Source: Apus apus (Eukaryota > Chordata > Aves > Apodiformes > Apodidae). From it: a DNA stretch of 64,000 nucleotides. Under the pieces are notes generated by a model, which saw only the letters and a list, made by a program, of their open reading frames with translations, did not search any database and was not told the origin of the DNA. Within the stretch, counting starts at the first letter, position 1. Each line of letters begins with the position of its first letter. Positions 31,151-54,242 of this stretch are shown here, one piece after another. The DNA lies in NCBI RefSeq assembly GCF_020740795.1, contig NC_067301.1, positions 7,516,501 through 7,580,500 on the forward strand, read 5' to 3'. The position numbers and the translations under genes are program-made.

Positions 31151-31189
31151 GGCAGCTGCAAATCGGGAGGGTTTTTAGGATCGCAAATG

Positions 31190-32415: not shown

Positions 32416-35400
32416 GACAGCTGCTGGGGGCCATGTCCTCGCTGCTGTCCCTGCAGGAGGAGAACCGTGTCCTGCAGCAGGAGCTGTCCCGTGTGGAGGA
32501 CCTGCTGGCCCAGAGCCGGGCCGAGCGCGATGAGTTGGCCATCAAGTACAACACCATCAGCCAGCGGGTGGGTCAGCCCAAAAACACCCTTTCTAACCCC
32601 AAAATCAGGGTGCTTCAAAACATTAACCATTTTAGTAGGTCAAGGGAGGTTCTCCTCCCCCTCTATTCTGCCTTGGTGAGGCCACATCTGGAGTATTGTG
32701 TCCAGGTCTGGGCCCCTCAGTTCCAGAAGGACAGGGAACTGCTGGAAAGAGTCCAGCTCAGAGCCACAGAGATGATGGAGGGAGTGGAACATCTCCCTGA
32801 TGAGGAAAGGCTGAGGGAGCTGGGTCTCTTGAGCTTGGAGGAGACTGAGGGGCGACCTCATCCATGTTCACAGACACGTTCAGGGCAGTGTCAGGAGGAC
32901 AGAGCCAGGCTTTGTTCAGTGATGTCCAGGGACAGGACAAGGGGCAATGGGTGCAAACTGGAGCACGGGAGGTTCTGTGTGAATATCAGGGAGAACTTCT
33001 TTCCTGTGAGGGTGACAGAGCCCTGGGACAGGCTGCCCAGAGAGGCTGTGGAGTCTCCTTCTCTGGAGACATTCAAACCTGCCTGGACACGTTCCTGTGT
33101 GATGTGCTCTGGGGGATCCTGCCTGGCAGGGGGGCTGGCCTGGGTGATCTTTCCAGGTCCCTTCCAACCCCTGGGATTCTGGGATTCTGTGATCAGCCTT
33201 CTCATTCCCACCCTCCCAGCCGCAGCAGCAACATCCCAGTGGTGGGAATTTCAGGGCTGTGTCCAGACCCGTCCTGGCTTGTTGGGGCTTGTCCCATGGG
33301 ATGTACAAAGAACCTTCAACCTCCCCATCCTGATTTTATTTATCCCATTGTTTTTTGGAAAGTGGGATCCCCCCTCAGCAACATTCCTGGGCTTTGCATC
33401 CCTTTGCTGGGGCAACGGGGTTTATTTTGGGTTATTTAGAAATATTTTTTGTTAATTTAATTTTTTTTTGTTATTTTGACTTTTTATTTTTAAAAATATT
33501 TTCTCATTTGTTCTGAGATATTTTGGGTTATTTTGAAATAATTTTTGTTTATTTCAAAGTATTTTGGTTTATGTTGAAATATTTCTGGTTTATTTTGAAG
33601 TATTTCTAGGCTATTTTGAAATATTTTTGGGTTATTTTTTCATTTATTTTGAAATAATGTGGGTTGTTTTGAACTATTTTTTGGATTATCTAGAAAGATT
33701 TTTTGTTTATTTCAGAATATTTTGGTTTATTTCAGAATATTTTGGTTTATTTCAGAATATTTTGGGTTTATTTAAAAATATTTTGGGTTTATTTCGAAAG
33801 ATTTTTGGGTTACTTTGAATTTTTGGGGGTTTATCTTGAAATATTTTTGGTTTATCTTGGAATATTTTTGGTTTATCTTGGAATACTTGGGTTTAGTTTG
33901 AAATACTTTGGGTTTATATTGAAAAAGGCCAAGCTGGAAGTCTGAGGTGACCCAGTTTTGTCCCATCAAAGTTGGGGATGCAGGATTTGGGGGGGGATGC
34001 AGGATTTGAGGGGGATAGAGGATTGGAAGAGATTTAGGATTGGGGGGATGGTGGATTGGGGGGGATGCAGGGATTGGGGGTGTGGAGGTTTGGGGGGGGG
34101 ATGGAGGATTGGGAGGGATGGAGGATTGGGAGGGATGGAGGATTGGGAGGGATTTAGGATTTGGGGGATGGAGGATTGGGGGGGATGGAGGACTTGCGGG
34201 GGGATGCAGGATTGGGAGGGGTGGAAGATTGGGGGGCGATGCAGGTTTAGGGGGGGGATGGAGGATTGGGGGGGGTGCAGGATTTGGGGGGATGGAGCAC
34301 TGGGGAGGATGCAGGCTCGGGAGGGGATGCAGGACTGGGGGGCTCAGCTGTAGGTTCACCACCCTGAAGGGCTGGGCCGTTGCCGGGGGAGCCGGAGGAC
34401 GTTCAGTGGGTGCTGGGGGTTAATTTCCCATCCTGATTTGGGAATGGGGGGGGTCTCCTGGTGTATCCCGCTTCATCCCAGCTGGAGCAAAGCCTGCGGC
34501 AGGAGACGGGCGAGCGGGAACCCGAGGAGAGCAGGAGCCTGGCCCAGCACAACATCGAGCTGCGGCGGCTGCTGGAGGAGGAACAAGCCGCCTACAAGCG
34601 GAAGCTACAGGCCTACCAGGAGGGGCAGCAACGCCAGGCCCAGCTGGTGCAGAAGCTCCAAGCCAAGGTGAATCCTTCCCGATAGGGATTTAGGGATCAT
34701 TTGGGAATCTTCCCCACCCCCCCGTGGGTGTCACTCACCCCCATCCCCTCTGCCCAAGGTGTTGCAGTACAAGAAGAAATGCGGCGAAGCGGAGCAGCAG
34801 CTGCTGGAGAAGGCGACGGAGCTGGAGCAGGAGAGGCTGACGGTGAGGGGAGGTTTTGGGGGGGTCCTCCTGCCCCCGAAGCCCACCCACCCCTCACACG
34901 ACAATTGGGGTGAGGCTGAGGGGGTGACGTCCCTGCAGAGCCAGCTGGATGTGAGCGGCTCGCCGCCGGAGGAGGAGAGCAGCAACGAGCTGGAGAACGC
35001 CTTGATCCGGCTGGAAGAGGAGCAGCAGAGGTGAGGGGGGCTGGGGAGCTGTGGGACCCTCTGGGGGGATGCTCAGGCCGTGTGGGACCCCCCCATCCCA
35101 CTCCATTCCATCTCTACCCCACCCTGTCCCTGTTCCATCCCCATCCCTGTCCCTGTTCCCATCCCCTTCTCCATCCCCATCCCTTCTCCATCCCCATCCC
35201 CTTCTCCATCCCCATCCCTTCATCTCCATCCCCATCCCTTCATCTCCATCCCCATCCCTTCATCTCCATCCCCATCCCTTTTCCATCTCCATCCCCATCC
35301 CTTTTCCATCTCCATCCCCATCCCTTCATCTCCATCCCCATCCCTTCATCTCCATCCCCATCCCTTCTCCATCCCCATCCCTTTTCCATCTCCATCCCCA

Positions 35401-38400
35401 TCCCTTTTCCATCTCCATCCCCATCCCTTCATCTCCATCCCCATCCCTTCATCTCCATCCCCATCCCTTCATCTCCATCCCCATCCCTTCATCTTCATCC
35501 CCATCCCTTCATCTCCATCCCCATCCCCCTTCTCCATCCCCAACCCTGTCCCACCCCATCTCCATCCCCTATTTCCCACCCCACCCTATCCCATCCCACC
35601 CCCCCCAGGAGCAGCAGCCTGGTCCAGGTGAATTCCCTGCTGCGGGAGCAGCTGGAACAAGCCAACGTGGCCAACGCGGCGCTGAGCGAGGACATCCGGA
35701 AGCTGACGGCAGATTGGGCCCGGGCCCGGGATGAGCTGGAGCAGCGGGAGGCAGAGTGGAGACATGAGGAGGAGGTGGGGGGTCCCCTGGGATTGGGGGT
35801 GGGGCTGGGGGCAGCAAGGGAGGCAGGGAGAGGGGTACTGGGATGCAGGAGTGTGGCATGGGAAGGGATGTGGGGAGGGATGTGTGGAGGGATGTGGGAC
35901 CACTGGGAGGGATGCAGGATCACTGGGAGGGAGGCGGGGAGGGATGCAGGTGACTGGAAGGGATGTGGGATCATGGGATGTTGCATGGATAAGAACGTGG
36001 GGGTGCCGGGGGTTTGGAACATGATGGGGAGAGGGTGTGAAGCAGAGGGTTGTGGAGATGTGGCAGGGAAAGGGAAGTGGGACCAGCAGGAGGGAAGTGG
36101 AACCATGGGAGATGTTGCACAGAGAAGCATTTGGGGGTGCTGGGACTGTGGGACACAATGAGAGGGCGACATGGGGCAGAGGGAACATGTCTCCTGTCCT
36201 TCTCCATGGGGTGGGGAGGGTGGGGGGCTCCAAGGGGGTACCAGGCAGAGGTGGTGGCCCAGGGAAGGACCTGGCTGGTCTGATGTTGCTCCATCCCACT
36301 GGCAGTCCTTCAACACCTACTTCAGCAATGAGCACAGCCGGCTCCTGACCCTCTGGAGACAGGTGGTGGCCTTCAGGAGGCACTTTGGGGAGATGAAAGC
36401 CACCACTGAGAGGTTAGGAGGGTCCTGGGGTGGGGGGGGTGTCTCAGAAGGTCTGTAAGGAGTCCCAGGAAGTTTCTGAGAGTTCTTAGGAGGCCTCTGA
36501 GGGGTTCCTGGTGGTCAGCAGGGTCCTTGGAGGTCTCTGAGAGGTCTCTGGAGGATCCTGGGAGGTCTCTGAGAGGTCTCTGGATGTTTCTGAGGGGTTC
36601 CTGGAGGTCTCTGAGGGGTTCCTGGAGCTACTGGGAGGTCTCTGAAGGCTCCTTGGATGTTTCTGGGGGGTTCTTGGAGGTCTCTCAGGGGTTTCTGAAA
36701 GTCCTGGGAGGTCTCTGAAGGGTTCCTGGGAGGTCTCTGAGGGGTTCCTGGAGCTACTGGGAGGTCTCTGAAGGCTCCTTGGATGTTTCTGGGGGGTTTC
36801 TGGAGGTCCTGGGAGGTCTCTGAGGGATTCTTGGAGCTACTGGGAGGTCTCTGAAGGCTCCTTGGATGTTTCTGAGGCGTTCCTGGAGGTCTCGGGAAGT
36901 CTCCGAGCAGTTCCTGGAGCTTCCCAAGGCCCCACCCTATTCCCGGGGGTGATTGTCTTCCATCCCACCTCTCATTCCAACAGGGAGCTGTTGGAGCTGG
37001 TCCAGGAGGCCTCCCGGACAGGCCGTGCTGCCCACGCTGCCTGCCTGCACTTGGCCTCCAACCTGCGGCTGCGGGAGAACCAGGCTGGGCTGGAGCGGGA
37101 GCGGCTGGAGCTGCGGCGGGAACAGCTGGAGCAGCAGCTGGAGACACGGGAGCGGGAGAGGACGGACTTGGGTGCCAAGTATGGGGGTTTTGGGTGCTGG
37201 TTTGTGTCTTCATGGGGTGGGTCAGGGGGCTGAGGAGCTGCCCCATGTGTCACCACAGGCTGGAGGAGGTGACGGTGGCCCTGGAGCGGCTGCGGGAGGA
37301 GCACGGGGAGAAGGAGCGGGAAGTGCGGGAAGTGCGGGGGCGGCTGCAGGAGGTGGTGAGTGTGGGGGTGTTGGGGGGGTGGGAGTGGGGTGGAATTGGG
37401 GGGGCGTAGGGGTGGGAGGGGGTGCTGAGGTGCTGGGTACTGGGTGGGATGGATAGAGGGGCAGGATGGGCACTGGAACGTGGTGCCTACCAAGCCCAGA
37501 GGTGTAAGGTGGGGTGAGGGGTGAGATGCAGGATCATAGAACCGTTCAGGTTGGAAAAGCCCCTTGGGATCACCGAGTCCAACCATCATCCCTGCTCTAC
37601 AGAGTTCTCCTCTGAACCTCATCCACCAACGCCACAACAAAATGATCATAGGATCCCAGACCGGTTTGGGTTGGAGGGACTTTAAAGATCATCCAGGCTC
37701 ACCCCCCTGCACGGGCAGGGACACCTCCCACCAGCCCAGGCTGCTCCAAGCCCCATCCAACCTGCCCTTCAACACTGCCAGGGATGGGGCAGCCACAGCT
37801 TCCCTGGGCAACCTGGGCCAGGGTCTCACCACCCTCATAGGAAAGAATTTCCTCCTCATGTCCAACATAAATCTCCCCTCTTCCAGTTTTAATCCATTCC
37901 CCCTCATCCCAACCCTCCCTGCCCTTGTCCCAAGTCCCTCCCCAGCTTTCCTGGAGCCCCTTCAGGCACTGGAAGGTGCTCTAAGGTCTCCCTGGAGCCT
38001 TCTCTTCTCCAGGCTGAACACCCCAACTCCCCCAGCCTGTCTCCAGAGCAGAGCTGCTCCAGCCCTCCCATCATCTCAGTTTTAATCCATTCAGTTCCAC
38101 ACGCGCCCCGGGGTGCAGTGCATGCAGGGTTCATCCTGGGGCGCAGGGCACATGGCACCGTGCCCTGTGCTCCGGGCTGTCCCTGAGGCTGCTCTGATGG
38201 GCTCTGCAGGAGCTCTCCCGTGCCCGGGACCCGTCGCCAGCCGAGGTGGAGGCCTTGCGCTGCGAGCTGGAGCTGCTCCGGCAGGCGCTGCAGGAGGTCA
38301 CGCAGGTGATGGGGCTCCCTGCCTCCCTCTTCCTTCCCCTGCAGCCGGGGGAGGTCTCCCCTGTGCCTCAGTTTCCCCCCAGTGCCTCAGTTTCCCACCC

Positions 38401-41400
38401 CTTCCCCCAGTGCCTCCTATCCCAGTGTCTTTCCCCTCCCCGATGTCCCCCATCCCCACTTCAGTTCTTCCCACCCTGTGCCTCAATTTCCCCCCTGTAC
38501 CTCACTTTTTCTCCCCACCTCAGTTTCCTGCCTCAGTTTCCCTGCTCCTGCCTCAGTTTCCCCTCCTTTACCCCAGTTTTTTCTCCCCACCTCAGTTTCC
38601 CTCCCATGCCTCCATCTCCCCTCTTTACCTCAATTGCCCCCCATGCCTCAGTTTCCCCTCCTTTACCTCGGTTTCCCCCTGTGCCTCGGTTTCCCCCCGT
38701 GCCTCAGTTTCCCCCTCCCCAGTGACACGGGTGTCCCCCACTCCCCTGGCAGGCTGTGCTGTCGGAGGACCCCGAGCAGCCCCCATCACCCCCGCCCCGT
38801 CCCCCCGCCTCGCCCGCTGCCGCCATCACGGCCGTGCAGGCCGCCCTGCAGCGCCGCCACCTCCAGCTGAAGGTGAGCGCGGGGACGCAGGGTGGCGGTG
38901 GCCCCTGGGCGCCCCGGCGGTGGAGCCGTCACCCCCCGTGTCCCCCAGGAGGCCCGGGGCCAGGCGCACGCCCTGCGGCAGGAGCTGGGGGCTCGGGAGC
39001 GGCGGCTGGAGGAGCTGGGGGCCGAGGCCGGGAGCTGCCGGCGGGAGCGGGACCAGGCGCAGGCGCAGCTGGGGCAGCTGCAGGAGCAGGCGCAGGAGCT
39101 GCAGAGGTACCCGGGGCTGGCGCTGGCTGGGGCTCTGTCTGTCTGTCCTCAGTGTCTGTCTGTCCTCAGTGCCTCTGTCCTCAGGGCTCCTCCATCCGTC
39201 TGTCCTGATTGCTCCCTCTGCACTGAGTGCTCTCTCTCTCTCTCTCCTCCGTGCTCCGTCTGTCTGGAGTGCTCCTTATGTCCGTCCCAGATGTCTGTCT
39301 GTCCTCCTTCCCACCAGTATCCATCCATCTCTCCTCCCACCATCCCACTGGTGTTGGTCTGTCCATCCGTTTACCCTCCGTCCCATTCGCCTCAGTCCGT
39401 CTGCCTGCCTGCTGTCTCAGTGCTGTCCGTCTGTCTGTCTGCCCACCTGCCATTCCAGTGCTATCAGTTTGTCCATCGGTCTGTCCGTCCGGCTGTCCTA
39501 CTGCTGTCTGTCTGTCCATCCACATGTCTGCCATCCCACTGGTGTCAGTCTGTCCATCTGTCTGTCCACCTGCCATCCCACCCATGGCCGTGTGTCCCAT
39601 CTGTCCACCCACCATCGCAGTGGGAACTGTCTGTCCGTCTGTCCACCCTTCCAGTGCTGTTGATCCATTTGTATGTCTGCCATCCCACTGGTGTCCATCT
39701 GTCTGTCCATCCACCTGCTGTCCCACTGGTGTTGGTCTGTCCATCTGTCTGTCTGCTGTCCCCGCAGTGTCTGTCTGTCCATCCACGCCCCACCCCAGCA
39801 GTGTCTGTCTGTCTGTCAGGGTGCAGCAGCAGCTGGACACGCTGCAGCAGGAGCGGGTGCAGCTCCAGGGCCGCCTGGAGGGGCTGGAGGAGGCGCATGC
39901 TCGTGCTGCCCAGCAGGTGCAGGACACCCGCCAGCAGCTGGAGCACAGGTGGGGACACTGGGGGTGACACCCCTCGGGGGGCTGTGGTGTCCCCCAACCT
40001 TCCCTGGGTGCTGTGAAGCTGCAGAGGGTCCCTCCTGGACCCCTCCCTAAATGGGTCCCCCAAATGCCCCACCCCAGACTGGGTGCTGCCACTTTGCCCC
40101 CACACTTTGGATTCTGCTGCCCCACGCTTTGGGTGCTCTAACCCCCCAGTTGGGTGCTCTAACCCCCCAGTTGGGTGCTGTAACCCCTCAACTGGGTGCT
40201 GTAACCCTCTCACTGCCCTCTAGTTGGGTGCTGCACCACCCCCCCAGAGTGGGTACCCTCAAGCCCACCCCCCCTGCCCCCCCCCGCAAAGCTGGGTGCT
40301 GCAGTGCCCCCCGAGCAGGTGTTGCAGTTTCTGCCTGCCCTGCCCACAGTGGGTGCTGCAGGGGGTGGGTGCTGCAGGGGGTGGGTGCTGCGGTGCCCTA
40401 GGCTGGGTGCTGCAGCAGGGGGTGCTCAGCCAGCAGCAGGTGGAGGAGCTGGAGCTGCAGCGCGCGGAGGCGCAGCGGGAGCTGCTGGAGGCGCGGGAGG
40501 CGCTGAGCCGGGCGGCGCTGGAGGCCGAGGTGGCGCGGGGCGAGCGGGAGGCACTGGCTGAGGCGCTGGGCAAGGTGGGTCCCTGAGCCCCCCCTGCATC
40601 CCCCTGCACCCCCATGCAGTGCGTGTCCCCGTGCAGTGATTGCTGCAGCGGGTGTCCCCGTGCAGTCGGTGTCCCTGTCCATTGGGTGCTGCAGCAGGTG
40701 TTGCAGCGGGTGTCCCCGTGCAGTGGGTGCTGCCGTGGGTATTGCAGCAGGTGCTGCTGTGGGTACTGTGGTGGGTGCTGCAGCAGGTACTGTGGTGGGT
40801 GCTGCAGCGGGTGCTGCAGCGGGTGCTGCAGCGGGTTTCAGCAGGCTCACTCGCCCTCTCGGTGCCCGCAGGCCCAGGACAGCTGCGGGGAGCTGGCAGC
40901 AGCCGGGCGGGCAGCGGCGGCCGAGCAGGCGCGGCTGCGGGACAGCCTGGGCAGGACCAGCGAGCTGGCGGGGGGGCTGGCGCGGGAGCGCACGGAGCTG
41001 AACCGCTGCCTGGCCCGGCTGGAGCGGGAGCGGGAGAGCGCGCGGCTGCGGGAGCGGGAGCTGGGCCGGGAGCTGCGGCTGCTGCGGGGGCGGCTGGAGC
41101 TGCGGCAACGGGCCGGGGTGGCCGAGCGCCAGGGCCTAGAGCGGGCCCGCAAGGCGGCCGAGGAGGGGGCCCGGGGGCTGCGGGGCCAGCTCAGGACCCT
41201 GCGTGGCCACCACCTGCGTCTGCGCCAGCACCTGGGCCAGGTGGGACAGGACGGGGACTGGAAGGGGTAGGGAAGGGAGCAGGGGCAACTGGGAGGGGGG
41301 ACAAGGTAACTGGGAAGGGGTCAGGGCAACTGGTATGGTGCATGGGGCAACTGGGAGGGGTGGGAAGCATGCACAGAGCAATTGGGAGGACCCTGGTGGG

Positions 41401-44400: not shown

Positions 44401-47400
44401 GACCAGTGGGGTCCCTCAGGGGTCGGTGCTGGGACCGGTGCTGTTCAGTATTTTCATCAAGGACCTGGATGAGGGTACAGAATGTACCCTCAGCAAGTTT
44501 GCTGGTGACACCAAGCTGGGAGGAGTGGCTGACACACCAGAGGCTGTGCTGCCATTCAGGGAGACCTGGACAGGCTGGAGAGTTGGGCAGGGAGAAACTT
44601 GATGAAATCCAACAGGGGCAAGTGCAGAGTCTTGCATCTGGGGAAGAACAACCCCAGGTACCAGTACAGGCTGGGGGCTGAGCTGCTGGAGAGCAGGGTA
44701 GGAGAAAGGGACCTGGGGGTCCTGGTGGACAGGAGGATGACCATGAGCCAGCAGTGTGCCCTTGTGGCCAAGAAGGCCAATGGCCTCCTGGGGTGATCTG
44801 GGTGATCTTTTGAGGTCCCTTCCAACCCTTAAGATTCCGTGATTCTGTGACGCCCACCCTGCCCAAGCTGGAGGGGGGGTGCTCAGGTCTGCATGTCCCC
44901 CCCCAGACCCTGTCAGCAGAGCTGCGCAGCCTGCGGGCACAGGCGGAGGAGGCAGCAACAGCCCATGAGCGGGAGGCCAAGACTCTCCGGGAACAGGCGG
45001 CAGCAGCGGCCAAGCAGCGGGACAGTGCCCTGCGGGAGGTGACGACCCCCCCAAAAATTAACAACACCCCTTCTCACCCCCCTAAGTACCACCCCCCTCC
45101 CCTAAACCCTGTGTGTGTGTCCCCGGGGTGCAGGCGGAGGAGGCGCGGGCGCAGCTGCAGCTGGTGGCGGAGGCGCGGGCGGCCGGGAGGCGGGAGCTGC
45201 TGGAAGCGCAGCGGGAAGCCCGGGAGAACCAGGAGCTGCGGGAAGTGCAGCGGAGGCAGGTGCAGGAGGCCCGGAGGGCTCTGGGAGATGAGGCCAGGGA
45301 GAAGGAGACCCTGAGGCGCTCCAACGAGGAGCTGCGGGCGGCGCTGCGCCGCGCCGAGGGAGAGAGGATCAGGTGGGACTCGGGATAAGGGGAGGGATGG
45401 GTTGGGATGTGTCTGGAGTTGGGATGGTGCTCGGGAAACAGCGATGTCCGAATTAGGAAATGGTGGGATGGCTTGGAGGGCTGTGCTTGGGGTTGGGGTG
45501 ATGCTTGGGATAAGGGGATCCTCCGTGTAGGAGGTGCAGGGGGTGGTGGGATGCCTTGGAGGGTGATGCTTGTGGTTGGGGTGATGCTCAGGACACAGGG
45601 ATGTGCAGTTTGGAAGATGCAGGGGGTGATCGGATGACTTAAAGGGTGATACTTGGGGTTGGAGTGACGCCCAGGACACAGGGATGCCCAATTTGGGAGA
45701 TGCAGGGGGTGATGGGATGCCTTGGAGGGTTGTACTCAAGGCAAGGGTGAAGCTTGGGACAAAAGGGATGCTAAGGACAGGAGGATGCTCCAGTTGGGAG
45801 ATGCAGGGCATGGTGGGATGCTCAGGAGAAGGAGATGCTTAGGGCAAGGGGATGATTAAATTGGGACTTGAATGGGATGGTGGGATGCCTTGGAGACTGA
45901 TGCTTCGGACAAAGGGATGCCCAAGCTGGGACTTCCATGGGGTGATGTGGTGCCTCGAAGGATGATTCTCTAGACAAGAGGATGGAAATTTGGGGGCAGG
46001 GGGATGCTCTGGGGTTGGGTGATGCACTGGAGCTGGGTGCCTGGGACAGGGGGATGCCTGAGGCAGGAGTTGCTTGGGATAGAGAAGGACCTTCAGGGGA
46101 TAGAGGGGTGCTCAAAGTGGGTGATGCCTGCGAGGAGGTGCCCAAGGTGGGGAGATGCTGGGGGTAGGAATGGCTTGGAGAAGGATTCTTGGGGATGGGG
46201 GGATGCCTGGGATGGGGATGGCTTGGGGCAGGATGCTCAGAGCCACGGGGATGTCTTGGGATGGGGATGGCTTGGAGAAGGCTGCTCAGGGATGGGGAAT
46301 ATCTGGGAAGCCAGATGCTGAGGACGGGGCTGTCTCAGGACAGGGTGATACGCCAAGGCTGGGGAGATGCTGGGAGCTTCCCTGGGGTGGGAGGTGGCAC
46401 CAGCCCCTTCTCCCCGCCCTTTCCCGCAGCCTGAAGCGCAGCAGCGAGGAGCAGGAGCAGCGGCTGGTGCTGCTGCAGGACGGGCGGGCGGCTGCGGAGC
46501 GGGAGGTGCTGGAGCTGCGGGTCAAGCTGCGGGAACTGGAGCGCGCCCGCCTGGACGCCCGCAGGCAGCTGCAGGAGCTGCGCCGGCAGGTGGGGAGCAG
46601 GAGGAGGAGAGGGAGGAGCAATGACCACCCTTCCCAGCCATTCCAGGTGGCCCCACCTTCCTCCTCGGGCAGGTGAAGGACCTCGACAGCGAGAACAGCA
46701 AGAGGAGCAGGGAGGTGGGTGAGCTGCAGGCGCGCGTGGCCCTGGAGGAGCAGCGGGAGGAGGAGAGTCGCCGCGAAGCCTTCGGCCTCAGGCAGAAGGT
46801 GGTGGAGAGCGAGGCTGGCACCGAGGCTGCCAGGAAGGAGGTGACAGGTCCCCAGCAGCTCATTGCTCCAGGGCCCGCATGCTGAAGTGGCCCTGTGGTC
46901 CCCTAGCTTGGTACCCTGTGTACCCTGGAATTCTTTGCCCCCTCACCCTGTACTTCAGTGCCTGTTGTCACCAATAACCCCATTGCTCCATACCTGGGGG
47001 TTCCCTGTGTGCCATTATTCCATCCCCTGCATCTCTGGGTACCCCTCGTTACCCCATTGCTCCATCCCCTGCTTCCCTGGAGTCTCCCATGCGCTGTTGC
47101 TCCATCCCTGGGCTCCCCCTTCATCCCATTACTCCACCCCTGGGCTCCCCCACACCCCATTGCTCCATCCCCTGCACTCCCACCACCCCATATCTCCACA
47201 CCCCTCCCCAACACCCCTTTCCACGCCCCCTCTTCCCCCAAAACCCCACCAGCTCCAGGACCTGCAGCGGCGCCTGGCGGAGGCGGAGGAGGAGTTCCGG
47301 CAGCGGGAGCAGGACCTGTCCCGCAGCCTGGAGGAGGCTCGTGGGCACGAGAAGAAGCTCTTGGCCGACACCCGCAACCTGCAGCTGAAGGTGGAGGCGG

Positions 47401-50400
47401 CGCGGGGGGAGGCGGCCGAGCTGAGCCTGCGCCTGAGCGCGGCCGAGGGCCGGGCCCTGGGGCTGGAAGCCGAGCTGGCCCGCGGGGAGGAGCTGCGCCG
47501 CGCCGCCGAGACCCGCCTGGGGGGCATCCAGTCCGCCCTGCGCCGCACCATGGGCATCGGCCGGGCACCCGGCTCCCTGGGAAAGGGTGAGAGGGGCTGG
47601 GGAACGTGCCCTGTAACCCCACTGCGCCATCCTTGGGGGGTCCTCAGGCACCTCGTTGCTCCATTCTCTGCATCCCTGGGGTCCCTCATACCCCATTGCT
47701 CCATCCCTGAGATGCTCCCTCATCCCATTGCTCCATCCTCTGCTTCCCTGGGGTCCCTCATACTCCGTTGCTCCACCCCTGAGGGTCCCTCTCACCCTCT
47801 TGCTCCATCCCTGGTATCCCCCAGGACTCCAGTGCTACATCCACAGGGGCCCCCCATACCCCATTGCTCCATCCCCTGCATCCCTGGGGTCCCCCTCACC
47901 CTGTTGCTCTATCCCTGCATCCCTGGTATTCCCCAATACCCCAGTGCTCCATCCCTGGGGGTGTCCCCATCACCCCATTGCTCCGTCCCCTGTATCCCTG
48001 AGCTCTTCCATACCCCAGTGCTCCATCCCTGGGAGGTCCCCATCGCCCTATTGCCCCATCCCCTTCATCCCTGGAGTCCCATGTCCCTCAATTCCTCCAT
48101 CCCTGGGGTCCCCCACACCCCACTGCTCCATCCCTTGGGGTCCCTCATCACCCCATTCCTCCATCTCTTCCATCCCCAGCATTCCCTGTATGCCATGGCT
48201 TGCATCCTTCTGGGGTGCATCCCACTCCATCTTGCAATCCTCCCTTGGGGTGTGGCATCCCATTGTCCCCCTGCCACCCAGTTTGTCCCCATACAGGCAA
48301 GGGACCAGAGGGGTCAGGGAACCCCAGCTCATCCCTGGACCCGGACGCGGAACCGGAGGCGGTTCGGGCAGCCCTGCGGGAATTCCTGCGTGAGCTGCAG
48401 GACACACAACGGGAACGGGTAGGGATCCCCCTTCCCCCCCCCTCTCCTCAGCCCCAAAAAGCCCCTTTTTCACCCTGTTTTGTCACCACAGGAGGAGCTG
48501 AAGGTGCAGGTGGGCACCCTGGGCCGGCAGCTGGCGGAGGCAGAGGAGGAGCGAGACAGCGCCAGTGCCCGGGCACAGCAGCTCCAGAAGCTGGTGGCTG
48601 AGAGTGAGGAAGGTGATGGGTTTTTTTTGGGGTTGTATCCCCCCCAAAACATGGGTTTCAGGGTGATTTGTCCCATGTTGGAGCCCTGCCAGCCAGAGAG
48701 GGAAACTGAGGCATGGGAGGGGTGGCAATGCTACCTGGGGCTTCAGGGTGCTGGGTGGGATTTACCCCAAGCACAGTCCCAAAATCTGGTAAAATCCTGT
48801 GAAAATCCCTTGAACCCCAGTAAAACCCCTGTGCACACCCCAGTAAAACCAGTAAAGTCCCCGTGTGTCTCCCATAAAGCCCAGTAAAACCAGTAGAGCC
48901 TTTGTGTATCGCCCATAAACCCCAGTAACACTGGTTAAGTCTGCTATGGATCCCCTGTAAACCCCAATAAGACTGGTAAAATTCTCTGTAAATCCCAGTA
49001 AAACTGGTAAAACCTCCTGCAGATCCCCTGTAAACCCCAGTAAAACTGGGAAAAGCCCCCTGCATTCTCCATAAATGCCTTTAAACCACCCCTATAAACC
49101 CCAATAAACTGGGTAAAACCCCCTCTACATCCCCTGCAAACCCCCATAAAATGGTTAATCCCCCCTGCAAATCCCCATAAAATGGGTAAAACCCCCCCTG
49201 CATCCCCTGAAACCCCGATAAAGTGGGTAAACCCCCCCACACACCCCCTGCAAATCTCAATAAAGTGGCTAAAACCCCCCTGCATCCCCTGCAAACCCCA
49301 ATAGAATGGGTAACACCCCCCCTGCAAACCCCAATGAAGTGAGTAAATCCCCCCCTGCATCCCCTGAAACCCCAATAAAATGGGTAAAACTTCCCCTGCA
49401 TCCCCTGAAACCCCAATAAAATGGGTAAACTCCCCCTGCAAACCCCAATAAAGTGATTAAACCCCCCCTGCACCCCCCCCCCCCCCCCCCCCCCGCCCCC
49501 AGTCAGGTGGGTGAGCCCCCCGCGCCTGCCCTGGCAGGGTGGGTGACGCGGGGTGCCGGGCAGGGCGCGGGGAGCCCGGCAGTGCCCGCGCGGCGCGGCT
49601 GCTGCAGGAGGAGTCGCTGCGCCGGGGCGAGCGGGAGCGCCGGGCGCTGCGGGAGAAGGTGGCGGCGCTGGAGCGGGACCTGCAGCTCGCTGAGGTGGGC
49701 ACGTCCTGACCCTGGCCACACTGCTCTGGGATGGCTCTCCCATGCCTTCCAGGAGCATCCTGACCCCATCCCCATCCCCACCACTCTGTGATGGCTCTCC
49801 CACAACTCCCAGGAGCATCCTGTCCCTGTCCTCATCCCTCACCACTCTTTACTGGCTCTCCAGTGCCTTCCAGGAGCATCCTGGCACCATCCCCACCACT
49901 CCATGCCAGCTGTCTGATGCCTTCCAGGAACATCCTGGCCCCATCCCTGCCCACTCCATGCTGGCGCTCCCATCATTTCCAGGAGTATCTTGATCCCATT
50001 CCCATCCCTCTCTGCTCCATGCCAGCTCTCTGCTGCCTTCCGGGAGCATCCTTCCCTCATCCCCATCCCTGCCCACTCCATGCTGGCTCTCCCATCATTT
50101 CCAGGATCATCTTGATCCCATTCCCATCCCTACCTGCTCCATGCCAGCTCTCTGCTGCCTTCCAGGAGCATCCTTCCCTCATCCCCATCCCCGATTGCTC
50201 CCTACCAGCTCTCCCATGCCTTGCAGGAGAAGCTGGGTGCCACCCGGGCTGGCGAGGCCCAGCTGGAGGACACGAGGCAGCGCCTGGGGGGCAGCGCTGA
50301 GCCGGAGCCGGCGGCTGGAGCTGCAGCAGCGGGTGCTGCAGGGGGAGCTGCAGCGCGTCCGCCGGGCCCTGGCGGAGCGGCAGGAGGAGGCGCGGGCAGC

Positions 50401-53400
50401 GCAGGAGCGGCAGGAGCTGCTGCAGAAACAGGTGATGGTGGCACCGCCTGCAGTGCTGGGCTGCTCCTGGCTTGGGAAGGGTCTTCAAGATCATCGAGTC
50501 CAACCCTTCATCCAGCCCAGCCAAGGCCACCACTGATCCATGTCCCTCAGCACCACATCTACACGGCTTGGAAACCCCTCCAGGGATGGGGACTCCACCC
50601 CTGCCCTGGGCAGCCTGGGCCAGGCTTCAGTTACCCTTTCAGTGAAGAATTCTTTTCTAAAATCCAACCTAAACCTCCCCTGGCACAACTTGAGGCCATT
50701 CCCTCTTGTCCCATCCCTTGTTCCTGGGGAGCAGAGCCCGACCCCCCTGGCTCCAACCTCCTCTCAGGCAGCTGCAGAGCCAGCAGGTCTCCCCTCACCT
50801 CCTGGTCTCCAGGCTGGACACCCCCAGCTCCCTCAGCTGCTCCTGCTCAGACTTGTGCTCCAGCCCCTTCCCCAGCTCCCTTGCCCTTCCCTGGACACGC
50901 TCCAGCCCCTCCATGTCCTTCTTGTCCTGAGGGGCCCAGACCTGCCCCCAGGATTTGAGGTGTCCCCTCCCCAGTGCCCAGCACAGGGGGATGATCCCTG
51001 CCCTGCTCCTGCTGGCCACCCCAGTGCTGACACCAGCCAGGATGCTGGTGGCCTCTTGGCCACCTGGACACACGCTGGCTCATGTTCATTCAACCAACAC
51101 CCCCAGATCCTTTCCCACCAGGCACTTTCCAGCCACACTTCCTAAGCCTGGAGAGTTGCCAGGGGTTGGTGTGACCCAGGGCCATGTTGAACCCCTCTGA
51201 CCCTCATCCCATGGACTTTTCAAAACCAGTTGTGCTGAACCTTGGCTTGTTCCCTGGGCTGCAGCTGGCAGAGAGCGAGCAGCGCGCCGGCGCCTTGCAG
51301 CTGGCCACGGAGAGGCTGAGCACAGCCTTGGCAGAGAGCAGCTCCAAGACCCACGTCCCCAATGATGTCCCCAGTGATGTCCCCAGCACCACGGTGACAC
51401 CAGCAGATGCCACCAGGGTCCACCAGCAGCTGCTGCAGCTCCAAAGCCTCCTGACCGCCGGCGAGCTCGACCGCCGGGCACTGCAGGTGGGTGCTCGCTC
51501 CCCTGGCTGAGGGGAGCTCTCAGGGGTGACCCTGGGCTTTGGGGGTCACCTCAGCTGTGCCCCCTGGTCCCAGGAGGGGCTGGAGGTGGCCCGGCGGGCG
51601 CTGGCGGAGGCGCGGGAGGAGAAGGGGGCGCTGCGGGAGCAGCTGCGGGGGCTGCGGGAGGAGCAGGAGGCCCAGCAGCGCGGGCGGGAGCAGCTGGAGC
51701 TGCAGCTGCGGCAGCTGCAGGAGGTGAGGGGGGGGGTGGGTGCCCCCCGTGGTGGCGGGGGGGGGATCCCCACATGTCCTTTTGCCCCCTGCCCGGCAGC
51801 ACCCTGCCCACGCAGCATCTTTTGCCCCCACACAGCCACAGCTCCTCATTGCCCCCCCATACAGCCCTCTACACCCTCCTGCCCCACCCCCAGCTCCCCA
51901 TTGCCCCCCCCATGCCCCCCTACACCCTCTTGCCCCCCCCAGCTCCCCATTGCCCCCCCATGCCCCCCTACACCCTCTTGCCCCCCCCAGCTCCCCATTG
52001 CCCCCCCATACAACGCCCTACACCCTCTTGCCCTCCCCCCTAGCACACTATTGCCCCCTATATGCAACCCCCAACACCCACTAGACCTTCCCCCAGCACC
52101 CTCTTGCCTCTCTCCCCACAGCCCACCCTATTGCCCTACATGAAGCATCCTTTGCCCGCCTCCCACCTTGCAATCACCACAGACCCACACATAGCCCCAG
52201 CACCCTCTTGCCCCCGCATGCAGCACCCATTGCCTCCCTTCCATCACCCTATGGACCCCCAGCACCCCCTTGCCCCTCCATGCAGCACCCTTTTCCCCCC
52301 TTGCATCACCCTATAGACCCCCCTAGAGCCCCAGCACCCCTTTTCCCCCCCCGGCATCACCCTATTACCCCCCACACCCTTGCATCACCCTGTGGACCCC
52401 CCCTAGAGCCCCAGAATGCCCTTGCCCCCCCATGCAGCACCCATTGCCCCCCTTCCATCACCCTATGGACCCCCCTGGCACCCCGGCACCTCCTTGCTCC
52501 CCACCCCCAGCCCCCTCCTGGGGCGCAGGGCTGACCCCCCCCTGCAGGCGCAGCGGCAGGAGCTGGGGGGGCTGCAGGAGCGGGTGGGGACCCTGCAACG
52601 CGCCCTGAGCCGCGCCCAGGCCGACAGGAGGGAGGCCGAGCGCCTGGCCCTGCGCCTGGAGAAGGACAAGGGTGCCCTCAAGAAGACCCTGGAGAAGGTG
52701 AGGCCACGGGTGGCACCCAGAGCTCCACACCCACGGGGGACAGGGGGTGGTGGCACCTTCTAGAGACCTTCTGCCCCATCAGCTTCATGCTGCACCTTCT
52801 AGCTACCATGTCCTCAGGGTCACCATGGTGTAGCCCCTTTTAGAGACCATGTCCTGAAGATCACCAGAGTGCAGCACCTTCTAAGGACCAGCTCCTGCAC
52901 CATCACCAAAGCAGAGCATCATCTAGGGACCTTGTCCTGCACCTGTCTCACCATATATATTAATATATATTTGCATATATATGTGATGGCTTACAACTGG
53001 GAGAGACTGAGGTTTAACATGAGGAGGAAATTCTTCCCTGTGAGGGTGGTGAGAGCCTGGCCCAGGTTGCCCAGGGAAGCTGTGGCTGCCCCATCCCTGG
53101 CAGTGTTGAAGGGCAGGTTGGATGGGGCTTGGAGCAACCTGGGCTGGTGGGAGGTGTCCCTGCCCATGCAGGGGGTTGGCTCTAGATGGTCTTTAAGGTC
53201 CCTTCCAACCCAAACCATTCCATGATTCCATGATATTACTGTATGAAAAGGAAGCACAATATTAGGCTGGAACTGGATGATCTTTAAGGCCCCTTCCAGC
53301 CCAGCCCAGTCAGGGATTCCATTCTGTGATTCTCTATGAGCAATAAACCACATCTAATATATAAGTAACTGCACAACGGGTCTGAAACAGATTTGATACC

Positions 53401-54242
53401 TAAATCCCGACCAGCTGCACAAATTGATATTTCATGTTCTAGATGCATGTTTTATGTGCTGGAGGGGGGTCGGGGAGGGGGGGGTGACGCCCCACATCCC
53501 CTCCCCTAACCCAGTTGCCCCCCGACCCCGGGCAGGTGGAGCGGGAGAAGCTGCAGGGGCAGGAGGACTGGCTGAGGCTGCAGGTGGAGAAGACGCGGCT
53601 GGATCGTTCCCTGGGGACGGCGCGGAGGGACCTGGCGCAGGCTCAGCACCGAGTGCAGCTGCTGCAGGTGGGGCTGGGGAGGGGCACCCCTGGCTGCTGC
53701 CCCCCACACCCCCCACACCCCCACACCCTGCTGGTGGGACCCCCGCGAGTTGTACTGGGAGGGGACTGGGCTCTCATCGCGGTGTTGGGGGCAATGGTGC
53801 ATCCACTGGGATGGCACTGGGCTCATCCCAGTTGGAAGGGAGATGCTGGTGGTTGTACTGGGATGGCACTGGGCTCATCCCAGTTGGAAGGGAGATGCTG
53901 GTGGTTGTACTGGGATGGCACTGGGCTCTTTTTTTTTGTGCGTGTGTGTTGGGGGGGGGGAGGGAGAGGGTCTCCTCCCATCTCCAGAGCTGCTTTCGGG
54001 GTGACCCCCCCACCCCAAACTGCACAGGCTCAGGTGTCAGTGCTGGAGCAGCGTCCCAGGGCCCCCCCGGGGCTGGCTGGCCCCCCCGGCGGCCTGGAGG
54101 AGGAGGTGAGGATTTGGGGAGACACACCCCCTGGGGGGGGGCGGGTCCCAGGCGGGTCCCCACCCCCCACAACCCCCCCTTCTCATTGCAGGTCGCGCTG
54201 CTGAAGGGGCCGGATCTGCCCCCTCTCCCCTCCAGCATTTAG
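32416..54242 (+). CDS. CROCC: CROCC (rootletin), 34 exons recognised, N-terminus missing
   Basis: Rootletin forms the striated ciliary rootlet and the linker between centrioles; it is a parallel coiled-coil dimer. Exons: 32416-32567, 34482-34667, 34759-34842, 34939-35030, 35609-35774, 36306-36412, 36984-37178, 37259-37355, 38210-38305, 38753-38872, 38949-39106, 39820-39948, 40430-40574, 40872-41240, 41544-41737, 41821-41948, 42854-43002, 43554-43655, 43730-43864, 44907-45038, 45134-45372, 46430-46589, 46673-46840, 47253-47586, 48297-48418, 48492-48612, 49564-49694, 50227-50431, 51265-51486, 51574-51723, 52548-52697, 53536-53667, 54028-54105, 54192-54242. They give about 1,730 codons against 2,017 in human. 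Key matches: SLLSLQEEN and [11 protein letters not shown] (exon 1 here), [10 protein letters not shown] (6), [12 protein letters not shown] (21), [17 protein letters not shown] (24), [11 protein letters not shown] (25). Exon 10 is the proline-rich hinge. Phases agree at all junctions except within exon 28. The human N-terminal ~80 residues and about 45 residues after exon 11 have no counterpart found. Charged heptads (E, R, Q, L, A) run throughout; GC is extreme. Confidence 0.95.
32636..33196 (+). mobile_element. CR1 LINE fragment in CROCC intron after first recognised exon
   Basis: Sense CR1, 5'-truncated, nearly identical over its length to 7,256-7,806 (GGTCAAGGGAGGTTCTCCTC to CCCCTGGGATTCTGGGATTC). 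The two copies look recent and of the same source subfamily. It begins about 70 bases after the donor at 32,567. Confidence 0.92.
33420..33935 (+). repeat. AT-rich minisatellite in CROCC intron 1
   Basis: About 24 imperfect units of TTTATTTTGAAATATTTTGG and its variants. It is the only strongly AT-rich array in a gene otherwise full of GC-rich repeats. It gives a repetitive Tyr/Phe-rich open frame that I do not regard as coding. Confidence 0.9.
33965..34345 (+). repeat. G-rich minisatellite in CROCC intron 1
   Basis: Units of ~17-20 bases, GGGGGATGGAGGATTGGG, about 20 copies with many GGGG runs on the coding strand. It follows the AT-rich array after only ~30 bases. Confidence 0.92.
35100..35605 (+). 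repeat. 20-base C-rich minisatellite, CROCC intron 4
   Basis: Very regular copies of CATCTCCATCCCCATCCCTT, about 20 of them, from roughly 35,130 to 35,540. It leads straight into the exon 5 polypyrimidine tract. Confidence 0.95.
36420..36930 (+). repeat. ~24-base minisatellite, CROCC intron 6
   Basis: About 20 units built on GGAGGTCTCTGAGGGGTTCC, with a longer repeat (TGGAGCTACTGGGAGGTCTC to GCTCCTTGGATGTTTCTG) occurring three to four times, so short units have been duplicated in blocks. Confidence 0.93.
37531..37640 (-). mobile_element. CR1 3' tail remnant, older subfamily
   Basis: Antisense: ATCATAGAACCGTTCAGGTT, GGAAAAGCCCCTTGGGATCA, CGAGTCCAACCATCATCCC. It differs from the GGAAGGGACCTT family of its neighbour and is probably older. 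Confidence 0.75.
37642..38100 (-). mobile_element. CR1 LINE fragment in CROCC intron 8, antisense
   Basis: Antisense CR1 adjoining the previous one: GGTTTGGGTTGGAGGGACTT at the left, CCAGTTTTAATCCATTCCCC, CTTCTCTTCCAGGCTGAACA? type block as GCCTTCTCTTCTCCAGGCTG, and CATCATCTC at the right. It extends further 5' than most copies of this subfamily here. Confidence 0.88.
38335..38740 (+). repeat. Minisatellite of CCTCAGTTTCCCC units, CROCC intron 9
   Basis: About 20 irregular units with the CCTCAGTTTCCCC core separated by variable CTTTACC, CCTGTG or TCCCACC spacers. The tract is pyrimidine-rich on the coding strand. Confidence 0.9.
39118..39815 (+). repeat. TGTCTGTCC-based tandem repeat, CROCC intron 11
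   Basis: About 700 bases of TCTGTCTGTCCATC-type units with longer embedded copies (CATCCCACTGGTGTCAGTCT, four to five times). It occupies the place where mammalian rootletin has an additional ~45-residue stretch. Confidence 0.9.
40080..40425 (+). repeat. GTTGGGTGCTGTAACCCC-type repeats, CROCC intron 12
   Basis: Several 18-22 base units (TTGGGTGCTCTAACCCCCCA) are followed by GGTGCTGCAGGGGGTGG units running up to the exon 13 acceptor. The array itself contains several AG dinucleotides; phase fixes the acceptor at 40,430. Confidence 0.85.
40620..40855 (+). repeat. GGGTGCTGCAGC minisatellite, CROCC intron 13
   Basis: Short units (12-15 bases) of GGGTGCTGCAGC alternating with GGGTACTGTGGT. It is related in sequence to the end of the preceding intron's array, the only clear case of neighbouring introns sharing a unit. 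Confidence 0.9.
41260..41530 (+). repeat. ~30-base minisatellite, CROCC intron 14
   Basis: Units of AACTGGGAGGACCCTGGTGG plus ATACCTGGGG, four clean copies, preceded by shorter GGGGCAACTGGGAGGGG units. Confidence 0.88.
41955..42770 (+). repeat. CATCC-based tandem repeats, CROCC intron 16
   Basis: About 800 bases, first TCATCTTCATCCCCATTCCC-type units, then near-pure CCATCCATCCCTCCATCC units at 42,515-42,735. The minus-strand Trp/Gly/Asp frames across it are repeat products. Confidence 0.93.
43012..43550 (+). repeat. G-rich ~21-base minisatellite, CROCC intron 17
   Basis: About 24 units of GGGTTTTGGGGTGGGATGCT and variants (TGATTTTTTGGGG at the right end). The coding strand is nearly without C. 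It starts right after the weak donor AAG|GTGCCG of exon 17. Confidence 0.93.
43900..44330 (+). repeat. C-rich tandem repeat, CROCC intron 19
   Basis: Units of CCCCCATGCCTGGGCACC and ATTGCAAACCCCCATG, about 9-10 copies at 43,930-44,180, then irregular C-rich sequence. Confidence 0.85.
44378..44855 (+). mobile_element. CR1 LINE with large internal deletion, CROCC intron 19
   Basis: Carries the same RT piece as 6,830-7,225 ([12 protein letters not shown] and [11 protein letters not shown] in translation), then jumps from CAATGGCCTCCTGGGG directly to the 3' tail GATCTGGGTGATCTTTTGAG and CCTTCCAACCCTTAAGATTC. About 500 bases present in the sister copy are absent. This is a decayed LINE. Confidence 0.88.
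45385..46420 (+). repeat. G-rich tandem repeat, CROCC intron 21
   Basis: Roughly 1 kb of ~35-70 base units sharing GGGATGCTT, TTGGGAGATGCAGGGGGTGA and TGGGATGCCTTGGAGGGTGA. The right third changes to GGGATGGGGATGGCTTGG units. Purine-rich on the coding strand. Confidence 0.88.
46870..47250 (+). repeat. C-rich tandem repeat, CROCC intron 23
   Basis: Units of CCCCATTGCTCCATCCCTGG with spacers. The same core fills the next intron, on the other side of exon 24, so the array probably predates or was copied across that exon. Confidence 0.88.
47595..48290 (+). repeat. C-rich ~40-base tandem repeat, CROCC intron 24
   Basis: About 17 units with CCCATTGCTCCATCCCTG and ATCCCTGGGGTCCC(C). It shares its core with intron 23. 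Confidence 0.92.
48770..49470 (+). repeat. ~40-base tandem repeat with AATAAA hexamers, CROCC intron 26
   Basis: About 17 units of AAACCCCAATAAAATGGGTA plus AAACCCCCCCTGCATCCCCT. Perfect AATAAA occurs at 49,103, 49,259, 49,374, 49,415 and 49,447; other units carry CATAAA, GATAAA or AATAGA. The array is followed by a C run of about 25. Confidence 0.92.
49471..49499 (+). repeat. Poly-C tract
   Basis: About 25 C with one G near the end, directly after the preceding array and about 65 bases before exon 27. Tracts of this kind are prone to assembly error. Confidence 0.9.
49700..50222 (+). repeat. ~60-base tandem repeat, CROCC intron 27
   Basis: Eight to nine units with GCTCTCCCATGCCTTCCAGG, AGCATCCTGACCCCATCCCC and a CACTCCATGCTGG box. 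Each unit ends in a TTCCAGGAGCATCC stretch that looks like an acceptor (CCTTCCAG|G); the true exon 28 acceptor, CCTTGCAG|GAG, appears to be the last of the series. Confidence 0.9.
50227..50431 (+). CDS. CROCC: CROCC exon 28 with a 1-nt frame shift at a G6 run
   Basis: The exon is 205 nt, yet the previous exon ends and the next begins in phase 0, so 204 (or another multiple of 3) is expected. From the left the frame reads [20 protein letters not shown]; from the right end back it reads [20 protein letters not shown] in the other frame. Both halves match rootletin, and the change of frame falls within or near CTGGGGGGCAGC (G run 50,286-50,291). One surplus G explains it. A sequencing or assembly error in the homopolymer is the simplest reading; a true mutation would truncate the protein about 300 residues early. 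Confidence 0.85.
50474..51190 (-). mobile_element. CR1 LINE fragment in CROCC intron 28, antisense
   Basis: Antisense, about 700 bases: 3' tail at the left (AAGATCATCGAGTCCAACCC), then ACCTAAACCTCCCCTGGCAC, CTCCCTCAGCTGCTCCTGCT and the AGGATGCTGGTGGCCTCTTG block at the right. Sister to the sense copy at 765-1,306 and to the window's first element, and longer than either at its 5' side. Confidence 0.9.
51265..51486 (+). CDS. CROCC: CROCC exon 29 with a non-helical insert
   Basis: The exon opens with a typical rootletin heptad stretch ([20 protein letters not shown]) and closes with [19 protein letters not shown]. Between them is a proline, valine and threonine segment, [20 protein letters not shown], that cannot form a coiled coil. 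The DNA shows a short repeat (GATGTCCCCA three times), so it arose by local duplication. Mammals have a continuous coil here. Reading frame and splice sites are intact. Confidence 0.85.
51775..52540 (+). repeat. C-rich tandem repeat, CROCC intron 30
   Basis: Units of CTACACCCTCTTGCCCCCCC and CAGCTCCCCATTGCCCCCCC (left half), then ATGCAGCACCCATTGCCCCC and ATCACCCTATGGACCCCC (right half). It is purine-poor on the coding strand. Confidence 0.92.
52770..52945 (+). repeat. ~42-base minisatellite, CROCC intron 31
   Basis: About four units of CACCTTCTAGGGACCATGTC plus CTGCACCATCACCAAAGCAG. The same unit forms a larger array at 60,185-60,560 upstream of MFAP2, some 7.3 kb away. Confidence 0.85.
52995..53240 (+). 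mobile_element. CR1 3' fragment, CROCC intron 31
   Basis: Sense CR1: GAGACTGAGGTTTAACATGA, GGGAAGCTGTGGCTGCCCCA, CCCTTCCAACCCAAACCATT and CCATGATTCCATGAT. A TA-rich patch (ATATATTAATATATATTTGC) sits just before it. Confidence 0.88.
53262..53338 (+). mobile_element. CR1 3' tail remnant, CROCC intron 31
   Basis: About 75 bases: GGAACTGGATGATCTTTAAG, CCCCTTCCAGCCC, GATTCCATTCTGTGATTCT. It is a second, separate tail 25 bases after the previous CR1. Confidence 0.8.
53795..53940 (+). repeat. ~52-base tandem repeat, CROCC intron 32
   Basis: Two and a half near-perfect copies of ATGGCACTGGGCTCATCCCA plus GTTGGAAGGGAGATGCTGG plus TGGTTGTACTGGG. Near identity of copies suggests it is recent. Confidence 0.92.
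54028..54242 (+). CDS. CROCC: CROCC last two exons: shortened C-terminus
   Basis: Exon 33 reads AQVSVLEQ, as in mammals, but then [18 protein letters not shown]. Exon 34 reads [16 protein letters not shown] and stops at TAG (54,240-54,242). Mammalian rootletin has about 55 more coiled-coil residues between VVVLEQ and GLEEQVSTLKG and a longer tail. So the last coil is lost and replaced by a short proline/glycine link. Splice sites and phases are good. An undetected exon in the 86-base intron is not possible; one in the preceding intron (53,668-54,027) is not seen. Confidence 0.8.

Follow-up and report, generated by a model that had tools for sequence, protein, structure and literature searches.

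Mostly private tandem-repeat arrays in the introns of CROCC in Apus apus, with unit lengths clustered at multiples of 10.4 bp

Introduction

Why would one gene carry tandem-repeat arrays in about half of its introns, mostly with a different unit in each? This question is raised by CROCC, the rootletin gene, of the bird Apus apus in a 64,000-nucleotide stretch of the assembly GCF_020740795.1 (contig NC_067301.1, positions 7,516,501 to 7,580,500, forward strand). This single sequence was analysed and is referred to as the window; coordinates are positions within it. A sequence-only reading of the window had claimed that most CROCC introns are filled by their own tandem-repeat family, that the exons remain clean, that the flanking genes SZRD1 and NECAP2 have no such intronic arrays, and that something local creates minisatellites here again and again. 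The intronic tandem expansion in CROCC is real and strong, and the neighbouring genes are nearly clean. The new element is that the unit lengths cluster at whole multiples of the helical repeat, 10.4 bp.

Comparable introns are known from other birds. Massive local intron expansions, termed 'sequence stuttering', have been described on chicken dot chromosomes, where the median intron repeat coverage is 7-93%, compared with near zero elsewhere, and where the euchromatin is without interspersed repeats; exon copying occurs in 3.4% of dot introns, 115 genes show exon stuttering, and the mechanism is left open (Hron et al. 2026, PMC12954441). Tandem-filled introns also occur in GC-rich 'missing' avian genes such as TNF-alpha, MRPL52, PCP2, and PET100 (Beauclair et al. 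2019, PMC6792250), and chicken satellites include CNM (41 bp, centromeric) and sate-21 (21 bp, W-linked) (Huang et al. 2023, PMC9974502). The words 'CROCC' and 'rootletin' are absent from the main text of PMC12954441, whose gene list is in the supplement, and no paper on bird CROCC introns was among the titles listed for CROCC or rootletin combined with chicken and tandem repeat.

Results

Arrays were identified with Tandem Repeats Finder (TRF) at two settings, a UCSC-type and a laxer one, and paired figures are given in this order. The gene span and the intronic arrays are listed below; besides TRF, anchor spacings support the rows of intron 1 array b and introns 6, 9, 14, 24, and 26, and the pair comparison supports that of intron 23.

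32416..54112, + strand: modelled coding span of CROCC (rootletin), 33 coding-sequence exons and 32 introns (gene-finding script and tblastn, curated)
33423..33924, +: intron 1 array a, AT-rich, 21-bp unit; lags 10/11, 20/21, 41/42, 62
33974..34342, +: intron 1 array b, 17-bp GGGGATGGAGGATTGGG, off the 10.4-bp comb
35135..35601, +: intron 4, 20-bp TCTCCATCCCCATCCCTTCA (TRF row 35168-35547, 18.9 copies, 91% matches)
36468..36921, +: intron 6, anchor spacings 10/11, 21/22, 31, 40/42, 52; 126-bp TRF period, 94% matches
38468..38719, +: intron 9, 18/19/38-bp unit, off comb
39447..39783, +: intron 11, 42/81-bp and 38-bp units
40129..40391, +: intron 12, 21-bp (93%) and 16-bp (100%) units
40615..40836, +: intron 13, 12/24/36-bp unit
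41270..41520, +: intron 14, 21- and 31-bp units
42080..42731, +: intron 16, CATCC-type, 8/12/30/33-bp units
43030..43546, +: intron 17, G-rich, 20/21/42/62-bp units (20/21/42-bp rows 43045-43546)
44064..44158, +: intron 19, small array, 42-bp unit, 2.3 copies, 87%; intron 9% covered
45464..46297, +: intron 21, 83-, 65-, 48-bp units
47097..47199, +: intron 23, 32-bp unit, common to intron 24
47651..48169, +: intron 24, 32/40/72/114-bp units
48837..49472, +: intron 26, 31-33/41/73/157-bp units
49724..50191, +: intron 27, 61-bp unit; 122-bp TRF period, 87% matches
51839..52474, +: intron 30, 48-bp (90%) and 21/62/80-bp units
52788..52939, +: intron 31, small array, 41-bp unit, 72%; intron 18% covered (lax)
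53805..53928, +: intron 32, 52-bp unit, 2.4 copies, 100% matches; probably the youngest array

The arrays, coordinates, and intron numbers of the sequence-only reading are correct, and so are its units (20 bp in intron 4, G-rich in intron 17, 40-41 bp in introns 24 and 26, 52 bp in intron 32, and AT-rich in intron 1). Tandem array makes up more than 20% of 16 of the 32 CROCC introns at the UCSC-type setting and of 18 at the lax one; the latter set consists of 17 of the 22 introns of at least 297 bp, referred to as the array introns, plus one 74-bp intron. Altogether, 34.7% / 45.8% of the 16,499 intron bases are covered, while 20 dinucleotide shuffles of the same introns give means of 0.55% / 1.9% and maxima of 1.4% / 3.8%. 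Thirteen of the 32 introns are without any array at the UCSC settings. The view that the exons are clean holds insofar as no array crosses a modelled exon end, the array ends lying at least 7 bp away in 17 of 17 array introns; it does not hold for TRF coverage, which amounts to 3.7% / 8.2% of the exon bases. The exonic rows inspected, for example 37083-37143, 41021-41105, and 51612-51671, resemble 18-21-nt coiled-coil heptad coding. The match excess of the coding sequence at the heptad lag of 21 is 0.09, and 21 nt is also near two helical turns.

The neighbouring genes are nearly, not entirely, array-free: coverage of the intron bases is 2.5% in NECAP2 (6 introns, 2.6 kb), which has a 65-bp array in intron 1, and 1.3% in SZRD1 (3 introns, 11.5 kb), and neither gene has an intron above 20%. 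Arrays are also found beyond the introns of the three genes (8906-9274, 24214-24651, 29370-29714, 30997-31489, 31878-32366, and 60220-60546), so the locus has no sharp boundary. This bears on the explanation that nothing is special to CROCC, its density being ordinary for GC-rich microchromosomal sequence, with SZRD1 and NECAP2 clean by chance or selection. Arrays cover 22-33% of the interval between NECAP2 and CROCC and 14-19% of that between SZRD1 and NECAP2, and a chicken survey counts chromosome 21 as one of those with more minisatellites and tandem arrays (PMC4992247). In chicken, this locus lies on that chromosome. However, median simple-repeat coverage is near zero in introns off the dot chromosomes (PMC12954441), and the low coverage of the SZRD1 and NECAP2 introns also speaks against ordinary density, which we consider somewhat unlikely. 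That something is special to CROCC is nevertheless unproved, given the arrays outside its introns and the similar process published for many chicken dot-chromosome genes in PMC12954441.

The relatedness of the arrays was assessed by comparing 27 regions in 351 pairs against 7,020 shuffled pair scores (10 shuffles). Twenty-five pairs pass the 99% level, and seven exceed the highest shuffled score (54); four of these seven are introns with common dispersed repeats, and three are array pairs. The arrays of introns 23 and 24, which flank exon 24, are 68% identical over 279 bp, the CCATCC-type arrays of introns 4 and 16 are 67% identical over 507 bp, and the third pair joins the intron 16 array to the reverse strand of intron 1 array b. 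There is also a weak match between introns 6 and 14. Thus, the claim that each array has its own unit stands for most arrays, which are private, and fails for introns 23/24 and for the CCATCC theme shared by introns 4, 16, and 1 (reverse strand). The arrays of introns 23 and 24 (47097-47199 and 47651-48169) have one unit family in common, as though it had jumped exon 24. A single shared mobile unit as the source is rejected on this comparison, in which no unit is common to most introns.

Exon copies were screened with a re-implementation of the method of Hron et al. (hits of at least 20 bp). None of the eight hits lies in a neighbouring intron; a single hit exceeds a bit score of 42.1, and it is distal (exon 28 to intron 13), while the shuffled control gives two hits with a top score of 18.3. 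Descent of the arrays from coiled-coil coding sequence is not supported: an exon or heptad source is rejected on the lack of neighbouring-exon copies together with a comb score of at most 0.021 at 20.8-21 bp, compared with 0.200 at 10.4 bp (see below).

We compared intron lengths inside and outside the arrays. Ten CROCC introns are 73-96 bp long and have no array under the UCSC settings (intron 18 has a short one at the lax setting), and the remaining 22 are the introns of at least 297 bp. Outside the arrays, 55-117 bp remain in the fullest introns (4, 6, 13, 14, 17, and 27), similar to the 73-96 bp of the short introns. Array growth explains much, not all, of the extra length of the array introns. 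Introns 8, 19, 28, and 31 are no more than 18% array and contain dispersed repeats, whose identity to further window copies is 87-96%; intron 1 holds both an array and a dispersed repeat (97.7% identical to a window copy), and intron 5 (531 bp) has 14% array and no dispersed repeat among the best 30 rows. An account of intron length by arrays only is rejected in view of these dispersed repeats and of intron 5.

The dispersed repeats at 32632-33186, 37645-38080, 50483-50970, and 52986-53237 (introns 1, 8, 28, and 31) are young, their best matches among other window copies being 87-98% identical, and one dispersed family recurs near 3969, 4333, 7805, 10221, 21028, 26008, and 55428. Intron 19 contains a reverse-transcriptase fragment at 44372-44793 (RVT_1, E 3.6e-5, below the curated score cut-off), which is CR1-like, as fits a bird or reptile; 44374-44793 is 95.7% identical to 6818-7235 of the window.

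The arrays differ in purity and show copying at more than one scale. In intron 6, blocks at lags of 126, 83, and 209 bp are 91-93% identical inside an array with a less conserved base unit, and intron 27 has a block at a lag of 122 bp with 91-93% identity; the base unit is only 63-68% conserved in both arrays. These high-identity multi-unit blocks in weakly conserved arrays indicate nested copying at several scales rather than single-unit slippage alone. Blocks of at least 90% identity over 40 bp, often at the base unit, are present in 17 of 23 arrays. The purest array, in intron 32, reaches 100% and the least pure about 65%, so the events are probably of differing age.

Averaged over the 17 array introns, the autocorrelation has its 20 highest values at lags of 9, 10, 12, 20, 21, 31, 32, 40-42, 52, 61-63, 72, 82, 83, 103, 104, and 115. 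A comb period of 10.4 bp fits best, with a score of 0.200, where the 99% point of the null maxima is 0.126 and none of 2000 null draws reaches the score. The near-zero score of the 20.8-21-bp comb indicates that odd multiples of 10.4 count as much as even ones. With altered lags and detrending, none of 5000 null draws reaches the comb score, and all 17 leave-one-out runs peak at 10.3-10.4. The 10.4 signal is absent (-0.007) from the five long introns that are not array introns. Since the period was scanned and the null is a random stretching of each array, these tests address clustering, not its cause.

Other measures of the unit give consistent periods. The spacings of anchor 9-mers in 23 arrays (spacings up to 130 bp) have a best period of 10.3, reached by none of 1000 null draws, and intron 6 alone shows spacings of 10, 11, 21, 22, 31, 40, 42, and 52. 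The dominant TRF periods of 44 non-overlapping arrays throughout the window (periods of at least 14 and TRF scores of at least 100) have a best period of 10.3-10.4 (p 0.0002); grouped as 35 clusters, their score is reached by none of 1000 null draws, and the 10 clusters outside the CROCC introns peak at 10.3, a value with no separate null. Lags in phase with the comb score higher than those at half phase in 19 of 24 arrays (Wilcoxon p 0.0004, sign test p 0.007). A bootstrap over 22 arrays, a set that includes 60220-60546 and leaves out introns 23 and 32 and 30997-31144, gives a period of 10.40 (10.25-10.50) and an offset of -1.1 to +0.35 bp.

Several results weigh against a common comb. The own 8-14-bp peak lies at 10.1-10.5 in 9 of the 17 array introns and elsewhere in 8. 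The joint peak of five arrays outside the CROCC introns falls at 7.7 bp, where the score is 0.164; at 10.4 they score 0.091. Much of the comb comes from introns 1a, 6, 14, and 26: when these four arrays are removed, the other 18 give only p ~0.04 (122 of 3000 null draws). Different units are found in intron 1b (17 bp), intron 9 (19 bp), intron 13 (12 bp), intron 16 (8 bp), and the arrays that start at 24214 (23 bp) and 31878 (19 bp).

The comb hints at how the array copies arise. One tentative and rather unlikely reading is that the intronic minisatellites of this bird grow in helical-repeat quanta, with both ends of the duplicated segment engaged from one side of a free B-form helix (10.4 bp, an offset of zero), for example by paired cuts of SPO11-like dimers, and not by free slippage. 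The programmed DNA deletion of Paramecium, whose deleted segments reportedly have lengths with a periodicity of about 10 bp, is a possible precedent for helix-set lengths. No report of helical minisatellite unit lengths was found, by title and abstract start, among the papers listed from the open-licence PMC literature, which cannot prove absence.

A more specific explanation is that the unit lengths record meiotic double cutting by SPO11, in which pairs of breaks at whole turns would be joined between chromatids or re-inserted as tandem duplications. Yeast double-cut lengths of 33, 43, and 53 lie about 2 bp above multiples of 10.4, compared with the offset of -1.1 to +0.35 bp found here; in addition, 8 of the 17 array introns have their own peak off 10.1-10.5, and the CROCC introns extend over 20 kb away from the promoter, the presumed site of hotspots in birds. 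SPO11 double cutting is considered an unlikely cause, despite unit lengths at two to eight turns and despite precedents in the literature: paired SPO11 breaks in mouse and yeast are ~10-bp periodic from near three turns, with 21-bp events seen, end joining of double cuts at adjacent hotspots yields tandem duplications in ATM-deficient mice (both PMC12918824, a preprint), and microchromosomes recombine more per Mb (PMC8466491).

Helical spacing could also reflect function, if the arrays were, for example, nucleosome-positioning or splicing elements under selection, and phase-true spacing does keep one helix face aligned. However, no unit is common to most introns, many copies are degenerate, and 13 of 32 introns lack an array at the UCSC settings. 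Selected function is considered highly improbable.

Transcription-linked R-loops or G-quadruplexes (G4) over CROCC could have seeded the arrays, which are strongly strand-skewed (mean absolute GC skew 0.54). On the coding strand, however, 8 of the 17 introns have arrays with a positive GC skew and 9 have arrays with a negative one, whereas R-loops favour G on the non-template strand. R-loops, which the sequence-only reading had named among possible local causes, are thus not supported as a directional driver. Coding-strand T outnumbers A in 15 of the 17 array introns regardless of the sign of the GC skew, which resembles ordinary transcription-linked asymmetry. G4 density over the gene span, exons included, is 3.26/kb in CROCC, higher than in NECAP2 (1.55/kb) and SZRD1 (0.51/kb), and G4 have been suggested for such genes (PMC12954441, PMC6792250). 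Within 18 CROCC arrays, on the other hand, the 33 G4 motifs are no more than the 35.0 +- 4.2 of 100 shuffles, and G4 enrichment is rejected. Seeding by R-loops or G4 is very unlikely.

Gene models and other features of the window

Three + strand genes, SZRD1, NECAP2, and CROCC, were located in the window by tblastn with protein queries and by a spliced gene-finding script. The remaining features are as follows, the arrays being from TRF.

9498-21440, +: SZRD1 coding exons (tblastn)
24821-28300, +: NECAP2 coding exons (tblastn)
24913-24977: NECAP2 intron 1, 65-bp array of 17-mers
8906..9274, no strand assigned: array upstream of the SZRD1 coding start, 11/21/32/51-53/63-bp units
24214..24651, no strand assigned: array directly upstream of the NECAP2 coding start, 23-bp unit, 18.9 copies, off comb
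29370..32366, no strand assigned: arrays of the NECAP2-CROCC interval up to the first coding exon of CROCC, with 83-, 31/62-, and 19/39-bp units; probably in part inside a CROCC 5' intron, in view of a GC- and CpG-rich block in this interval

The first coding exon of CROCC starts at 32416/32433, and an acceptor AG immediately precedes 32416, which places the 5' noncoding start further upstream. The last modelled exon (54028-54112) was added and exon 28 lengthened by eye; the split of exons 3/4 and the start of exon 24 were taken from the first gene-finding script; and predicted exons at 32721-32804, one of 1 bp, one of 4 bp, small terminal exons, and a CR1 piece were removed. Exon 28 (50218-50431) continues in a different frame near 50286-50291 compared with the human CROCC protein, possibly because of a small assembly indel or a gene-model error. 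The exon ends of NECAP2 and SZRD1 are tblastn ends or estimates and not splice-exact. Pfam matches support the three genes, with Rootletin in CROCC exons 1-3 (E 7.4e-16), SUZ in SZRD1, and DUF1681 (NECAP) in NECAP2; an Rfam scan of the window gave no match at the gathering score. A bird relative was sought in viral_contigs through one SZRD1 exon, and none of the 22 pattern matches was confirmed. A GC- and CpG-rich block lies at 30.5-31.0 kb within the NECAP2-CROCC interval, and a 29-bp tandem repeat at 6154-6257, upstream of SZRD1, lies within another (GC 0.82).

Discussion

We consider it probable, at roughly 60%, that the introns of CROCC are one more example of the local expansion of intronic tandem repeats, or 'sequence stuttering', known from GC-rich bird genes. 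Growth of this type is supported by the excess of array coverage over shuffles, the mostly intron-private arrays, the nested copy sizes in some arrays, the near-minimal residues in the fullest introns, the lack of a common strand polarity, and the clustering at 10.4 bp. Of the earlier proposal that a local process creates arrays recurrently, the repeated and mostly independent birth is upheld by only three array pairs above the shuffles, by the nested blocks, and by the residual lengths; its R-loop driver is not. Many CROCC introns may once have been minimal, about 75-95 bp. A mid-intron segment, often of two to eight helical turns, would then have been tandem-duplicated when a break was repaired or replication restarted, the region being GC-rich and highly recombining; the middle of an intron is presumably unconstrained. 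From two copies on, out-of-register repair would copy single units and later multi-unit blocks. Selection on exons and splice sites would keep each array within its own intron, which would give each intron a separate family.

Other observations weigh against stuttering-type growth. CROCC, NECAP2, and SZRD1 lie on chicken chromosome 21, which is not a dot chromosome. Off the dots, median intron coverage is near zero (PMC12954441), and the NECAP2 introns are likewise GC-rich (0.54-0.69) yet nearly clean. Eleven of the 17 array introns retain 176-1043 bp outside the arrays, well over the minimal size, and 6 of 23 arrays lack a block of at least 90% identity over 40 bp. Many arrays are degenerate (65-80% matches) and hence may be old rather than active. 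CROCC introns 1, 8, 19, 28, and 31 hold interspersed repeats (87-98% identity), unlike the euchromatin of dot chromosomes (PMC12954441). Neighbouring-exon copies, known from a subset of stuttering introns, are also missing in CROCC; as exon copying affects just 3.4% of dot introns, this absence is not decisive. With no exon copying and with interspersed repeats present, the CROCC case is a variant of stuttering.

In other respects, CROCC resembles the stuttering genes of PMC12954441: half of its introns are highly covered by tandem repeats, each with a local and, three array pairs excepted, private motif, its exons are intact apart from a possible frame change in exon 28, and TRF scores the arrays as simple repeats; the parts of that paper examined do not mention a helical comb. 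Introns of tandem motifs with G-rich runs are shared with the genes of PMC6792250, which differ in being absent from assemblies, while CROCC is assembled and its G4 motifs do not exceed shuffles. CNM and sate-21 likewise have divergent units of four and two helical turns and higher-order repeats (PMC9974502), but they form large single-family arrays, unlike the short and mostly private arrays in one gene seen here. The imperfect 8-120-bp units and some nested block copies are those of classical minisatellites (variable number tandem repeats, VNTRs), whereas the clustering in about half of the introns of one gene, with different units, is not.

The finding suggests that the stuttering of chicken dot chromosomes can strike single genes elsewhere. 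The 17 array introns, with mostly unrelated units anchored between conserved exons, are a natural replicate experiment on minisatellite birth and permit unit length, unit sequence, and fill to be compared across introns and birds. If growth in helical quanta is true, unrelated arrays, some of them outside CROCC, would share one signature, and the same growth on a large scale could have given rise to the 21- and 41-bp satellites of birds. If the comb holds genome-wide, it would point to a geometry-constrained duplication mechanism and offer a simple countable test.

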